From a virus: a stretch of 64,000 bases of DNA. Location of the stretch: positions 1 through 64,000 of IMG/VR virus record IMGVR_UViG_3300005613_000002. One strand, written 5' to 3'. How positions within the stretch are numbered: position 1 is the stretch's first letter; each line of letters opens with the position of its first letter. Made by a program: the position numbers and the translations under genes. The notes under the pieces are model-generated. The model was given only the letters and a program-made list of their open reading frames with translations, made no database searches and had not been told where the DNA came from. Below, piece by piece: positions 25,925 through 44,108 of the stretch.

Positions 25925-28750
25925 TTATTTATTATTGTGTTTTTCTTTAATTATTTTGATTACATCACTGAGTACTGATTCATTCACATTAGATTCATAA
26001 TCTTCATTGTCCATTACTTTAACTATTTCTTTTCTTTTACCTTCTATTGATGAATAAACATAATCATCAATAGTATCTGGAAAAATTGGGACATATATAT
26101 TAACAGCATTCTTTTGACCAATTCTATGTAAACGATCACTAACTTGGTCATATTCACCAACTGAATATGGTAATGTTGTTACAAATAATTTACTTGCTGC
26201 TGTAAGGGTTAATCCATAATTACAAGTCTGAATACTACCAAAAAATGCTTTAATTACACTATATAAATCTTGAAATTGTTCTACGAGAATTGCACGTTCT
26301 TCAACAGTTTGGTCACCAGTATGTAATGCTGACATTTCACCAAATTTTTCAGCTAATTGATGTAAACTATCTTTAAAATAATCTACCACAACAACCTTTT
26401 CCCCTGTTTCAATAATATTTTCAATTAAATCAATTAAATGTTTAACCTTTATGGATGCCAAATATTGTCTTAATCTAATCATTATTGTTAGTGGATTCCT
26501 TGTAGGGTGTTCAACAAATTCATTAGCTATTCCAGATTCAATTTCATCATATATTCTTTGTTCATTATCAGTCATTTCTAAAATTACTCGCTGATATGTT
26601 TTATCTGGTAAATCAGTTAATACCTCAGATTTTCTTACTCTATGTGTAAATGGTGCAATTTTATGGAATAATTCTTCAAATCTTGTCTCTAACTCATTAG
26701 TAACATAACCCCAACCACCTTCAATATCATATGTCATACCACAATAATACTCATTGAAGTATTTCTTTGTTGCAAAATCTGTTGGTGATATTTGATTTAA
26801 AACAGTATATAACTCATGTGCTCTATTTGGTGCAGGAGTTCCACTTAAAAATATTTTACTTATTTCATTATTTTTAAATATTGTTTTTTTAAACGTTCTA
26901 TTGAAATTCTTAAATGTGTTAGTTTTACCATTTTTTAATTTTTGTGATTCATCACAAATAACAGCATCAATTTTACCAATATTTAATTCTTTCCATTTTT
27001 TATCAAATTTATCTTTATCTTTAGGATTAAAATAATCGTAATTTAATATAATATATTTAGCATCATCAATACTACATTTATTTTTTCTCCATTTTACAAT
27101 ATGTGAATTACTTTTTGTGAATTTAATTACTTCACCATAAAAATTAAATTTTAATGAATTTGGTGTAATTACTACTACTTTCCTAAAATTATTCATTTCA
27201 GCATAAAGTATTGCGCTAAGAGTATTATGAGTTAAAACACAATTATCCATCACATATAAATGGTCGTCAGAGTCAATTGAAATACATTGTGCTTCTTTTT
27301 TACCGACATATTTAACATCAACAATTGCTCGATTTGGTAAATATTTTGTTGGTGCTACAAATGTTTCGATTTTTCTTTTTAATTTAAATGGGATAAATTG
27401 TTGTGGTAACTTTATTGTGATTCTCCAATAAAGTTTTCGTTCATTATTATAATTAACATATTTAGGTTTAATTCTACCAATACCACCCAATGATTGTACT
27501 ATAAATTGTACATCATTAATCAATTGTTTTGATGCTAAAGTTAATTCAATAATTGAATCTTTTCTTGAATGTCCATCAGTATCTAATATCCCTTGTAGTA
27601 TTTCAAGTCTTTGTTCTATTGATGAAAACTTATAATCATCAGGAATAAATTTTGTGTATGAATTACAACCTTTTAAATTATATTTTTTTAATGCTTGATT
27701 AATATAGTTATTTTTACCATCAGCAGTTAAATAATAATCCTTCACTGATTCACCACTTAAAACCAAATTATGTTTTTCTGGAAGTCTTAATTTTATTTCA
27801 TTAATTATTCCTTCATCAATTGATGAAAAACCAATACCATTTTTCACACAAATACAACCATCACCTAACAAACAACCTAAAACATATGGATTTATCTTTA
27901 AAACACGTTCTTCTAACTCAATTGGTTTAACAATTGGTATATACCATTTATTATTGCCATTTTTAAATTGTAACCCACCATCAATTATATCACGTAGCGT
28001 TTTAGTTAAATATGGATTTTTTCTCCAATTACGAATATATGTATTAACATTCCACAAATGTTCATCACATGATTGTGCAGTAGTTCCATCATTAAATGTA
28101 AGTTCATAAATATCTTTTAAACCTTGCGGATAAACACCATTTACTTTTTTTACTTTCCCATCACTACCAATAACTAAATCACCAACATTAACATCACCCA
28201 TTCTAATCCATCCTTTTGGTGACAGTATTTTAGAATCAATCGGATTTGCTTTACCCAATCCCATTTCGTGAGAAATAAGTGTGCTACGAGTGATATTCAT
28301 AAACATTGCAGCAACAATTTGATGTGGATATAGAACAATACCTTCGTTCACAAACGAATGCATTTTTTCAGTATATTTTAGATAATTTGTTTCTAATTCT
28401 AATTTATACTTTACCCAATTTTCTTTTTTTATGTTTAATTCAGCAATAAATTTACGCTTTTCATCTTCATCTTTTTCAATCTTTTTAATTTGATTGATGA
28501 AAATCTTTCGACTATCTTCATTACCAAAATCAAAATGAATTTTGGTTGAATTCTTATATTTTCTAATTAAAAGATATAGCGATGAAGTACTAACTTCCCA
28601 TGCCATATTTATGGGACTCCATTTACGGGTATCCTCTGGTAGGTCTTTTATTCTATTTATTAATTGGTCGTTTATTTGAAATCGTAGAAAATAGTATTTT
28701 CTTCTTCTTATTCTTTCACAATGAACAACAAAAATAGGTGTTTGTTTCAT
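25925..28750 (-). CDS. SNF2-type helicase interrupted by an intein
   Basis: 941 residues including a 342-residue intein. Without it the extein is 599 residues. Walker A GLGK (164-167) is split from the following T510. Later motifs are ICDESQKLKNG (DESQ box II), FLSGTPAPNRAHEL (III) and VSDRLHRIGQKNAVN (VI), an SNF2/SMARCAL1-like set. T4 carries UvsW and Dda helicases in similar roles of fork reversal and recombination-dependent replication. The N-terminal 150 residues include a HARP-like strand pattern. A host-type promoter lies just upstream, and QueC-like and polB genes follow. Confidence 0.88.
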   Translation of the reverse strand: MKQTPIFVVHCERIRRRKYYFLRFQINDQLINRIKDLPEDTRKWSPINMAWEVSTSSLYLLIRKYKNSTKIHFDFGNEDSRKIFINQIKKIEKDEDEKRKFIAELNIKKENWVKYKLELETNYLKYTEKMHSFVNEGIVLYPHQIVAAMFMNITRSTLISHEMGLGKANPIDSKILSPKGWIRMGDVNVGDLVIGSDGKVKKVNGVYPQGLKDIYELTFNDGTTAQSCDEHLWNVNTYIRNWRKNPYLTKTLRDIIDGGLQFKNGNNKWYIPIVKPIELEERVLKINPYVLGCLLGDGCICVKNGIGFSSIDEGIINEIKLRLPEKHNLVLSGESVKDYYLTADGKNNYINQALKKYNLKGCNSYTKFIPDDYKFSSIEQRLEILQGILDTDGHSRKDSIIELTLASKQLINDVQFIVQSLGGIGRIKPKYVNYNNERKLYWRITIKLPQQFIPFKLKRKIETFVAPTKYLPNRAIVDVKYVGKKEAQCISIDSDDHLYVMDNCVLTHNTLSAILYAEMNNFRKVVVITPNSLKFNFYGEVIKFTKSNSHIVKWRKNKCSIDDAKYIILNYDYFNPKDKDKFDKKWKELNIGKIDAVICDESQKLKNGKTNTFKNFNRTFKKTIFKNNEISKIFLSGTPAPNRAHELYTVLNQISPTDFATKKYFNEYYCGMTYDIEGGWGYVTNELETRFEELFHKIAPFTHRVRKSEVLTDLPDKTYQRVILEMTDNEQRIYDEIESGIANEFVEHPTRNPLTIMIRLRQYLASIKVKHLIDLIENIIETGEKVVVVDYFKDSLHQLAEKFGEMSALHTGDQTVEERAILVEQFQDLYSVIKAFFGSIQTCNYGLTLTAASKLFVTTLPYSVGEYDQVSDRLHRIGQKNAVNIYVPIFPDTIDDYVYSSIEGKRKEIVKVMDNEDYESNVNESVLSDVIKIIKEKHNNK
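27224..28249 (-). mobile_element. LAGLIDADG-type intein inserted in Walker A
   Basis: Residues 168-509 of the helicase. The intein starts at Ala (ANPIDSKILSPKG, block A) and ends VMDNCVLTHN (blocks F/G), with Thr as the +1 extein residue. Block B is TTAQSCDEHLW. Two dodecapeptide motifs, YVLGCLLGDG (289-298) and LQGILDTDGH (385-394), mark a homing endonuclease domain. Inteins commonly sit in conserved ATP-binding loops. The Ala+1 start places it with the less common Ala1 inteins. Confidence 0.92.
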
Positions 28751-41143: not shown

Positions 41144-42772
41144 TTATGCGTTTACACTTATTTTATTATTTCTCTTAACTGATGATGTTGAAATACTCAA
41201 CACTTGATTTTCCAACCAACGTTTTGTATCAATTTCAAGTAGTCTTGCTTGAATTTGTGGTTGTATTGCTACTGGATTATTAACTGCCATTGTAACAACA
41301 TCTGAACCTAATTTCCTAACATCAGCACCCATTTCAGCACTAGTTATTGGTGAAATTTGATATATTGGGATATTGCTTCCAGATTCATTTCTCCAAATAG
41401 AAATTACCTCATTAGTTAAACCATCATATGAATTTTCATATCCATCAGTTAAGATAAAAATTGCATCATATGGTTTTGTTGCATCTTCTTTCTTCAACAA
41501 CCAAATAAATGTGCTTGCCAAATCAGTAGTCTCACCCTCAGTTTCACAAAAATTAATATTCTTTGTTGACTTAGTTAATACCCTTGCAGTAAAATCTGCA
41601 ATTGCTCTTGGTGTATTTTTTGATTCTACCTTGTTCCCATTCATTGAATTACTTCTATCTACAATAACACCAATATTTTTATAATAGAAATCTTTAATTT
41701 TTTTCTTTTCAGCAAGATTATCAATAGCTATTTTTAATTCTTCTGTCCAACCATTTTCATAACCTGTTTTATATAATGCAAGAAAATCAGTAGCTTTTTC
41801 AACATTTACATGTTTTTCAACACCCAATTTTGCTGTTGATTTAGTTTGACGAACTTGTTGATTAATTGATGTCACTTCAACATTTTTTCTGATTAAAGCC
41901 TTTGTTGCTTCTCTCTGAATTTTTGTTGACCACATTGAATGATATTGTGGGTGTTTCGTGCTTGAAACCAAACCTATCAATATTTCTTCAGGAACTGTTT
42001 TAATTCCATTAATATCGGTTTTTGCTTTTTGATAATCACTTAATAATGGAAAATCAGCCACATTATAATTTAAATTATTATCCATTTTAAATAAAAACAT
42101 CAATAATTTAAATGCACGAAGTGAATCGCCATTAAAATATTTCAAAATTAAATTATTTGCAATAGACATTTCTTTAGCATCACTAAACAAACCATTATTA
42201 ACTGCTTGTTTACTAGCAATTGAAATTAAAATGCTTGTCTTTTTTTGACCATAGACATGTTTTAATATTTCAGCAATTTTATTACGATATTTCAATGAAT
42301 AAAATTCAATATTTGATTGACCCCAAATATATCCAAGTATAATTTTCCTTGTTCTTTCGTTGTTAACTTTTAATTTTTTCAAATCCATAAACAAACGAAG
42401 CACATATGGAATACCATTTTCACCAAGATTATTCAATGCAGTTAGAACTGCTTTATCACAAACCCCATTATCATACCAATCAATTGGATTAACAATATTA
42501 CATGCACCACCTTTTAACGTGTTTTTAAACTCATTTAACAACACTTCAGATATATAACGACCAGTTGCACCCTTTTGAGTTGCAATAATCAATGGTAGCT
42601 CCTTTGAGAGATTATATTGACTATTAATCTGTGCACGTATAGCATTCAATTGTTCATCTCTACTGTGATAGTAAGTGGCACTACTCTTAGCACCAGAAGC
42701 AATTGTTAAGCCGTCTATCAAAGACTGTTTGATAGAACTAAGCATTCTCTGTGTTAATACCAAATTTTCCAT
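41144..42772 (-). CDS. TROVE/Ro60-like protein with vWA domain
   Basis: 542 residues. Residues about 1-340 are helical and HEAT-like (VLRLFMDLKKLKVNNERTRK, then SLKYRNKIAEILKHVYGQKK), the arrangement of TROVE or related DUF2828-type proteins. Residues about 365-510 are a vWA domain: MIDAS VDRSNSM (D372, S374, S376), TEGETTDLAS and LTDGYEN (D443). Ro60 proteins bind misfolded RNAs and Y RNAs through this ring-plus-vWA fold; bacterial Ro works with tRNA-like Y RNAs. The gene is placed directly downstream of a tRNA-like RNA array and upstream of an ARPP-1-like gene. Ring closure and RNA binding are inferred. Confidence 0.68.
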   Translation of the reverse strand: MENLVLTQRMLSSIKQSLIDGLTIASGAKSSATYYHSRDEQLNAIRAQINSQYNLSKELPLIIATQKGATGRYISEVLLNEFKNTLKGGACNIVNPIDWYDNGVCDKAVLTALNNLGENGIPYVLRLFMDLKKLKVNNERTRKIILGYIWGQSNIEFYSLKYRNKIAEILKHVYGQKKTSILISIASKQAVNNGLFSDAKEMSIANNLILKYFNGDSLRAFKLLMFLFKMDNNLNYNVADFPLLSDYQKAKTDINGIKTVPEEILIGLVSSTKHPQYHSMWSTKIQREATKALIRKNVEVTSINQQVRQTKSTAKLGVEKHVNVEKATDFLALYKTGYENGWTEELKIAIDNLAEKKKIKDFYYKNIGVIVDRSNSMNGNKVESKNTPRAIADFTARVLTKSTKNINFCETEGETTDLASTFIWLLKKEDATKPYDAIFILTDGYENSYDGLTNEVISIWRNESGSNIPIYQISPITSAEMGADVRKLGSDVVTMAVNNPVAIQPQIQARLLEIDTKRWLENQVLSISTSSVKRNNKISVNA

Positions 42773-42920: not shown

Positions 42921-42990
42921 TTTGTTTAAAAAAAACATTACTTCCTTACAAATAAAGGAAAGAAGTGTGATTGTATTTTTTGTACGTTTG

Positions 42991-43012
42991 TGTCGCCACT
43001 ATCTGGGCGACA
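42991..43012 (-). ncRNA. Stable hairpin in tRNA-like array
   Basis: TGTCGCC / GGCGACA with an 8-base loop, the most GC-rich stem in the region, with partial TTTG/CAAA extension. It lies immediately downstream of repeat copy A and upstream of a second hairpin (CTTCCTTAC / GAAAGGAAG type). It is not followed by a T-run, so it is more likely part of an RNA than a terminator. Confidence 0.5.
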
Positions 43013-43021
43013 AATTTCAAT

Positions 43022-43047
43022 TTACTGTAAACACAATAAGTTCTTCC
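43022..43047 (-). repeat. Array repeat element, copy A
   Basis: Minus strand GGAAGAACTTATTGTGTTTACAG then TAA. The consensus of the four copies is GRRAACTWWNNGTGTTTACAGTAA. This copy precedes the GC-rich hairpin. Confidence 0.75.
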
Positions 43048-43207
43048 ATAAAACAAATTTTTTGAAAAAAATCAATATTTTACTATTGATAAAAACCATT
43101 TTTAACCTACACATCATTTTACTGATGATTCAAATGTTAGGTGGGGTGATGTTTTTATAAACATCCAAAAAACTTTGGGAATATTTTTAAAGTATTTGTT
43201 GCTTTTT

Positions 43208-43301
43208 GTGTGCAAGTTTTAACGACTTGTGACTTTACCGTTTGTCTATATCCCCAATTTTATTTTTTATTGGTGGGGATAGAAGGATTCGAACCTTCAA
43301 T
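43208..43301 (-). tRNA. Circularly permuted tRNA-like gene
   Basis: Reading the minus strand: a T-arm GAAGG-TTCGAAT-CCTTC, then acceptor 3' strand TATCCCC, discriminator A and encoded CCA (43281-43271). A 15-base A/T spacer follows, then GGGGATA-TA (43255-43247), a D-arm GAC-AAACGGTAAA-GTC and an anticodon-like stem CAAGT / ACTTG with loop CGTTAAA. GGGGATA pairs 7 of 7 with TATCCCC, so the halves are in reversed order. No T-arm exists further downstream that could serve the 5' half. The loop has G, not U, at position 33, so decoding is doubtful; a tRNA-like or Y-RNA-like role may be better. Confidence 0.6.
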
Positions 43302-43303
43302 AA

Positions 43304-43330
43304 TTACTGTAAACACTTATAGTTTTCCCT
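43304..43330 (-). repeat. Array repeat element, copy B
   Basis: Minus strand GGGAAAACTATAAGTGTTTACAG then TAA. It abuts the T-arm of the permuted tRNA-like gene and is preceded by AGGTTAAAG, a D-loop-like string. Confidence 0.75.
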
Positions 43331-43467
43331 TAATATCTTTAACCTATTGAACTGTGTGTTTATGTGAGGCACTACTTGGAATGTAATTTATCAGTTTTAC
43401 TAGCCTTTTCATGTTCATTCAATTTAGGAATCCGTTTCCATTTTGTTTGGATTCTTAGGTCAAATTG

Positions 43468-43602
43468 TGGGGAGAATCGGATTCGAACCGATAATCTATT
43501 GATTTCAACTCAATTGCTTTAACCTATTACTGTAAACACTAATAGTTCTCTTTTAAAGAGTAATGAGATAGTATTATTTGTTTTTGTTTTTGCTATCTCC
43601 CC
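43468..43602 (-). tRNA. tRNA-like gene split by an insertion in the D-arm
   Basis: The 5' acceptor strand GGGGAGA (43602-43596), then TA-GC, pairs 7 of 7 with TCTCCCC (43475-43469), which follows a good T-arm ATCGG-TTCGAAT-CCGAT. Between GC and the D-loop string AGGTTAAAGC lie about 65 extra bases that include an alternative hairpin (GAGATAG / CTATCTC), a CTCTT-TAA-AAGAG hairpin and repeat copy C. The anticodon stem ATTGA / TCAAT has loop GTTGAAA, giving UGA if read normally, but the variable loop is short for tRNA-Ser. No CCA is encoded. Intron, degenerate tRNA or tRNA-like ncRNA are all possible. Confidence 0.55.
43527..43551 (-). repeat. Array repeat element, copy C
   Basis: Minus strand AGAGAACTATTAGTGTTTACAG then TAA. 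It lies inside the split tRNA-like gene. CTATTA before and TAATAG after can form a hairpin with loop GTGTTTACAG. Confidence 0.75.
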
Positions 43603-43835
43603 ATTTATTAAATCCTGTAATTTTAATTAATACTTTATGTTTCTCTCTTTTCAGTAGCGTACATATCTCGTTAATCCTAAATTACAGAATTATTTTTTTA
43701 AATCTAAGCACCATGCCATTTCATAGGTATTAAAACCGCCAAAATTGGGGGTCTGCTTAAATTTATTTCATTATTTTAAAGAACTTTAAGCCAGTTACGT
43801 TTACATAAAGTAAAGAGGCTTTACTGACTATCATG

Positions 43836-43923: not shown

Positions 43924-43966
43924 ATATATTTTTTATAAAAGGATAGTTTATTTGTTATATGTTGTT

Positions 43967-44040
43967 TTTACAAAGTTGGATTTGAACCAACGGCATACTG
44001 CTTATAAGGCAATCACTCTAACCGACTGAGTTATTTGTTA
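43967..44040 (-). tRNA. tRNA-Ile(UAU)
   Basis: Complete cloverleaf: acceptor TAACAAA with TTTGTAA (one A-A mismatch), D-arm ACTC-AGTCGGTTA-GAGT, anticodon stem ATTGC / GCAGT with loop CTTATAA (UAU), T-arm GTTGG-TTCAAAT-CCAAC. It would read AUA, a frequent codon in this AT-rich genome. No CCA encoded. Repeat copy D overlaps its first bases. Confidence 0.85.
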
Positions 44041-44062
44041 CTGTAATAACAATTAGTTTCCT
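44038..44062 (-). repeat. Array repeat element, copy D
   Basis: Minus strand GGAAACTAATTGTTATTACAG then TAA. It forms a perfect TTGTTA / TAACAA hairpin with loop TTACAG, and the right arm is also the 5' acceptor strand of the tRNA-Ile. Confidence 0.72.
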
Positions 44063-44108
44063 TTAATATTTTCATCATTTTATATGAACGTTTTGTCCTA
44101 AGACGATA

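Follow-up and report, generated by a model that had tools for sequence, protein, structure and literature searches.

We identified, on the minus strand of a 64,000-nt window of huge-phage DNA, a circularly permuted tRNA-like RNA that is most likely a YrlA-like Y RNA, i.e., a mimic of tRNA and not a tRNA that decodes. The window (the whole stretch that we analyzed) covers positions 1 to 64,000 of the 321.6-kb virus record IMGVR_UViG_3300005613_000002, in which ~50 tRNA matches were found. The basal stem that the element shares with its neighbors, an adjacent gene for a protein with a predicted Ro60 fold, and an order of parts like that of YrlA led us to favor a YrlA-like Y RNA, a very divergent one that retains a full and variable anticodon arm. 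Such an RNA would represent a phage tRNA mimic built by circular permutation in which even the tertiary pairs and the anticodon arm are preserved, and it would extend the known Y RNA family by the addition of that arm.

Architecture of the permuted element

Read along the minus strand, the entire RNA spans 43177-43329, as delimited by a covariance model and by covariation, including a Y RNA-like basal stem. It starts with the 5′ strand of P1 (GGGAA, 43325-43329), whose partner TTCCC forms the far end of the element (43177-43181; 99.5% paired, 2 compensated pairs), and continues with the 5′ strand of P2 (ATAAGTGTTT, 43311-43320; 95% paired, double changes in 4 of 10 pairs), directly followed by a conserved ACAGTA (43305-43310). 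In the tRNA-like part, the base that corresponds to tRNA position 48 (43299) precedes a T-arm with the stem GAAGG/CCTTC and the loop TTCGAAT (43282-43298), after which come the 3′ acceptor strand TATCCCC (43275-43281), A73 and an encoded CCA (43271-43274), an AT-rich 15-nt linker that closes the acceptor (43256-43270), the 5′ acceptor strand GGGGATA (43249-43255), the dinucleotide TA, a D-arm GAC-AAACGGTAAA-GTC with G18G19 (43231-43246), and an anticodon-like arm CAAGT-CGTTAAA-ACTTG with a G at position 33 (43213-43229). The A-rich GCAAC then leads into the 3′ strand of P2 (AAATACTTTA, 43188-43197) and, finally, that of P1. The T- and D-arms were identified by parsing as well as by covariation. 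As a consensus, the basal stem reads GGGAA/TTCCC for P1 and nnAAGTGTTT/AAATACTTnn for P2, together with the conserved AAAC and (A/T)CAGTA.

This swapped order, from the T-arm to the anticodon-like arm, is exactly what a first-pass annotation of the window had described, and its further remarks that the acceptor strands pair at seven of seven positions and that no T-arm follows the 5′ half on the minus strand agree with our reading of the window copy. The interval that it gave (43208-43301) holds the core of the RNA, yet the element is larger (43329-43177), because the conserved P1/P2 stem encloses that core. That annotation mentioned neither this shared stem and the siblings that carry it nor the downstream gene with its Ro60 fold and the YrlA precedent.

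When the window segment was folded alone with RNAfold, the T, acceptor, D, and anticodon stems were obtained along with the enclosing P2 stem. Standard tRNA scans found two tRNAs in the array and missed the permuted element, and the covariance model R1 scored the window copy at 138.5 bits over all 142 positions, with the window copy itself being among the 44 training sequences. The 5′ and 3′ ends of the RNA form a basal stem that consists of P1, an internal loop, P2, and a 3×3 internal loop, and atop this stem sits a complete L-shaped tRNA made of the T-arm, the closed acceptor stem, the D-arm, and the anticodon arm. Since the chain enters and leaves this tRNA at its variable loop, the tRNA halves must be swapped in the gene.

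Conservation, covariation, and a relative in normal order

By way of the downstream gene (41144-42772), we reached 62 related loci in viral contigs, and the permuted element was found upstream of that gene in most of them. A separate scan with a DNA pattern yielded more copies, with the same arrangement in all those complete enough to read; in these related phages, the permuted order is kept. We parsed first 38 and then 46 distinct copies, all from one huge-phage clade, and aligned 44 of them. The covariance model of the element gave one match of at least 134 bits in each of eight records (G000-G004 and G006-G008), some of whose copies belong to the model's training set, and the weaker R1 matches (19 to 46 bits) that we read out were sibling stem RNAs or neighboring tRNAs in tandem. 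A DNA search of INPHARED returned zero matches, and the DNA-pattern scan of genome contigs returned four, all in unrelated coding-like sequence.

The acceptor stem offered a direct view of conserved pairing: 22 distinct acceptor pairs occurred among the first 38 copies, nearly all of them paired at 7 of 7 positions, and double changes were seen in all seven pairs across relatives, so that the GGGGATA/TATCCCC pairing put forward at first covaries throughout. A scan with the halves swapped had been suggested as well. In this test, ARAGORN called none of the 38 copies in native order, all 38 with swapped halves, and none of 760 dinucleotide shuffles; because the join in the swapped sequences was chosen by us, the test addresses the arms and not a real junction. 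In the 44 aligned copies, 97.8% of the cells paired, compared to 41 to 54% for slid controls, and double changes occurred in 23 of the 37 pairs, a level reached by 0 of 500 shuffles. RNAalifold recovered identical helices without guidance. Covariation was present in every arm and every stem, including double changes in five of five pairs of the anticodon-like arm, the loop of which is hypervariable.

The covariation extended to tertiary contacts. Of the 46 copies, 39 have G-C and 7 have A-U at the pair 15-48, without exceptions. On the gene tree, positions 15 and 48 underwent five changes each, in the same rows; the branches are well supported for only three of these paired changes, too few for significance in a sign test. 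Positions 26 and 44 covaried too, in a count that ignores the kinship of the copies. Together, the covariation of stems and tertiary pairs indicates the fold of an L-shaped tRNA, with the opening of the chain located at the variable loop.

Other features varied between copies. The linker differs in length, and several relatives have a 3-nt loop in its place; on the tree, four separate changes turned the acceptor into a closed hairpin, which is the least number of such events. CCA is encoded after the discriminator in 32 of the 46 copies and is absent from those with a closed acceptor, and a U at position −1 is found in most copies. U33 is present in 29 copies and lost in 17, among them the window copy with its G33, in line with the initial suggestion that the loop lacks U33 and that the RNA may be a tRNA mimic. 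Between phages, the anticodon of the permuted copies varies almost at random, UUA included.

A distant relative (L060) was found to carry the corresponding RNA in normal order, with the stem present as a giant, hairpin-closed variable arm; in its record, the covariance model of the element gave no match of 134 bits or more. Given this normal-order counterpart in L060, the element is a true circular permutation: The permuted form is the normal-order molecule opened at the tip of the stem and closed at the acceptor. The original proposal that this phage gene is tRNA-like and circularly permuted thus stands, with 46 conserved copies and one relative in normal order. Among further distant relatives, L149 and L198 have two permuted copies, L145 and L197 have one, and L142, L144, L147, and L150 have zero, with extra acceptor-linked copies instead. 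The normal-order relative and the separate closures of the acceptor form a natural series that may reveal which features a tRNA mimic must keep.

The downstream gene and the sibling RNAs

On the same strand downstream of the element lies a gene (41144-42772) for a 542-aa protein, which AlphaFold and Foldseek predict to have a Ro60 fold, with a helical-repeat N-terminal part and a C-terminal vWA domain (DxSxS). For the AlphaFold model (mean pLDDT 76.8), Foldseek ranks 1 to 11 were all Ro60/Rsr/TROVE proteins (E = 5e-5 to 1e-3), among them Rsr from Deinococcus and the Ro60 of a Thermus phage. The same family filled VIA ranks 1 to 10, with Z values of 12.9 to 15.2 over ~404 residues and both domains, followed by an unrelated, vWA-only match at 9.0, values to be read knowing that helical repeats alone can yield a moderate Z. 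A single family fills the entire head of the list and both domains are covered, which favors a Ro60 assignment, based on a predicted model of moderate confidence. In its predicted helical ring plus vWA domain and its length of ~540 aa, the protein resembles Ro60/Rsr (TROVE) proteins, which provide its best PDB matches (e.g., Ro60 of the Thermus phage phiLo, PDB 9L5Y), but the identity is ~12% and the TROVE profile PF05731 does not see it (0 of 9 records). A Pfam search of the window protein gave zero matches. We had at first counted the below-cutoff profile searches for TROVE and RtcB against a Y RNA, a judgment that the fold search reversed. An unannotated huge-phage gene that standard profiles miss may in this way be tied to the Ro60/Y RNA system.

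The gene and the RNA occur together. Among 51 loci that were found by the DNA pattern of the RNA alone, independently of the gene, 37 contain a Ro-fold gene on the same strand at 293 to 1606 nt downstream (measured from the RNA to the ATG). It was not seen in the other 14 loci, 13 of which span less than 1 kb downstream, while L126 has ~1.7 kb without the gene. In the INPHARED entry LR756500.1, we found a Ro-like homolog of 26% identity and, by reading, acceptor-linked and D-loop-linked siblings nearby.

At least three sibling RNAs in the array, all on the minus strand, share the basal stem of the permuted RNA. A Ser-type tRNA (43468-43602) has the stem inserted in its D-loop as a closed hairpin, and a normal-order tRNA-like RNA (43938-44064; tRNA-Ile according to ARAGORN) has it at the acceptor end; both are also present in L060 and LR756500.1. 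On a third sibling (42957-43047), the stem carries a GC hairpin (covariance-model match of 42.4 bits, with P2 compensation in relatives). CCA directly after the discriminator is found in few D-loop siblings. The short-hairpin siblings of relatives include an isolated anticodon-like loop on the shared stem, and their P2 strands change in concert: GTGAAT occurs with TTACA in 9 of 9 cases, GTGTAT with ATACA in 7 of 7, GGTGGT with ACCAAC in 10 of 11, and GATAGT with ACTAAC in 10 of 10. We dropped a reading of the shared GTGTTTACAGTA motif as a promoter, since the strands covary as RNA pairs (the first two of these combinations).

Several further observations concern the array. The stretch that separates the permuted RNA from the last sibling holds another conserved block, CCTAACATTTGA...GGTTAAAAATGG (43060-43142, minus strand), which is probably one more structured RNA; it is also present in L009, L018, L030, L049, L052, and L145. 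Two hairpin-like blocks, CAGTAAAGCCTC..GTAACTG (43788-43830, minus strand) and CCTAAGAATCC..GGATTCC..TTGAATGAACATG (43405-43462, minus strand), recur among relatives. In the D-loop sibling, the 5′ acceptor/D region can form an alternative hairpin with the inserted stem (GAGAUAG/CUAUCUC), which is compensated in L019, L069, and L060 and is possibly a folding switch. The anticodon of the acceptor-linked tRNA-like RNA (43967-44040, minus strand) is near-random between phages, with ARAGORN calls of Ile, Asp, Leu, Glu, Arg, Lys, Asn, a SeC-like TCA, and TTA; the tRNA-Met (CAT) beside it is nearly constant.

Comparison with YrlA and competing explanations

In YrlA, the basal stem tethers the Ro60 ortholog Rsr, while the tRNA-like domain binds PNPase (PMC8394870), and TROVE proteins with a tRNA-like partner are known from some jumbo phages (PMC7824862). 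YrlA-type Y RNAs have been reported from phages (PMC7765460), which calls for a slight correction of the earlier statement that no standard phage case of a permuted tRNA gene is known. The Rfam consensus of YrlA (RF02553) runs from a stem with two internal loops through the T-arm, acceptor, UA, and D-arm to the returning stem strands. The phage element likewise has a basal stem formed from the two ends of the RNA with two internal loops, a tRNA-like module that proceeds from the T-arm through the acceptor hairpin and UA to the D-arm, and an adjoining Ro60-type gene, and both RNAs occur in phages. Unlike known YrlA, which has stem in its place, the phage element contains a full, variable, and covarying 5-bp anticodon arm, and it further differs in its tRNA tertiary pairs, the CCA encoded in most copies, an AU-rich stem with conserved AAAC/GTGTTT/CAGTA, and its membership in a sibling set with several tRNA topologies. 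The RF02553 covariance model gave no match to the element at E ≤ 10, and a 27.6-bit match spans two neighboring genes and lies under the gathering score of 69. Since it has an additional anticodon arm and receives no score from the Rfam model, we do not file the element as a member of RF02553.

The ring protein encoded downstream would probably bind the basal stem, and the tRNA module, most likely as a mimic, would lead the Ro60 particle to a partner that binds tRNA (for bacteria, PNPase is the known case); alternatively, it may occupy enzymes that attack or modify tRNAs. We favor tRNA mimicry within a Ro60 particle, where the RNA would act as a tether of a tRNA-binding enzyme or as a decoy. 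A more speculative extension, to which we give limited credence, is a phage Ro60 particle whose several Y RNAs would display entire tRNAs (permuted, acceptor-linked, and D-loop-linked) with fast-changing anticodon loops, as decoys or tethers against host tRNA-targeting defenses.

The same loops can be taken further, in a tentative scenario where the stem RNAs offer a set of varied anticodon loops that absorb or inhibit host anticodon nucleases, with the Ro60-like protein only stabilizing them or being unrelated. Hypervariable anticodon loops in permuted copies and siblings and isolated anticodon-like hairpins on the same stem argue for it, and the published proposal that YrlA is a competitive inhibitor of an anticodon nuclease (PMC7790460) is a relevant lead. 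However, some loops resemble no particular tRNA. Being compatible with a Y RNA, this scenario is largely a sub-hypothesis about its function, and the variable anticodon loops make a decoy function testable.

A working, decoding tRNA is unlikely, because U33 is lost in 17 of 46 copies, the anticodons are nearly free to vary, and acceptors were closed by 3 nt in four changes. The main facts against a pure mimic, which it leaves unexplained, are the encoded CCA (32 of 46) and the frequent U at −1. CCA and U at −1 would fit RNase P recognition, as in an account, improbable in our estimate, where the element is a genuine permuted tRNA gene: The acceptor would be cut by RNase P and trimmed at the 3′ side to CCA, and the ends of the variable arm would be ligated through a circle, or P1/P2 would hold a two-piece tRNA together, to give a decoding tRNA. 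The placement of CCA right after the discriminator, as compared to few D-loop siblings, the intact tRNA tertiary pairs, and the RNA ligases of the PF09414 family that these phages encode are in its favor; the missing U33, the near-random anticodons, the 3-nt acceptor closures, and the non-tRNA hairpins on the same stem are not.

The enzymes and the flanks bear on the same point. The first-pass annotation had drawn a parallel with the permuted tRNA genes of algae and archaea, which also have the 3′ half upstream of the 5′ half, a linker between the acceptor strands, and an intact tRNA fold. A shared route through an RNA circle finds no support: In place of a bulge-helix-bulge, the phage element has a long conserved stem (10-bp P2), its U33 is often lost, and its acceptor is often closed by a 3-nt loop. 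The splicing endonuclease PF01974 was absent from the 7 records searched, besides which a host enzyme may exist, and the RtcB profile search gave nothing above cutoff. Permuted two-piece tmRNA is a bacterial case of a circularly permuted tRNA-like domain, with the CCA inside the intervening segment; the phage element shares such a domain, but it has a full anticodon arm and no tag reading frame, and it gave no tmRNA family match.

Least probable is a self-splicing or circularizing RNA in which P1/P2 and its conserved GTGTTTACAGTA would cut themselves out and seal the flanking ends, a candidate suggested by a stem that both encloses inserts (permuted, acceptor) and sits internally (D-loop, variable loop), which we dropped since P1/P2 is a covarying stem in every RNA topology and the Ro60-fold neighbor explains it more simply, the RNA is not long enough to be a group I or II intron and has zero matches to known ribozyme families, and the linkers at the presumed joints are conserved in neither length nor sequence.

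Two observations lie outside the array. In the main tRNA cluster, a tRNA-Ile-like gene has a long insert in its variable region (L137 146-274; G000:C1:148146-148268, plus strand), and other tRNAs of the same cluster have unusually long variable regions too. Within the window, a SNF2-type helicase ORF (25925-28750, minus strand) contains a LAGLIDADG domain, which suggests that it holds an intein.
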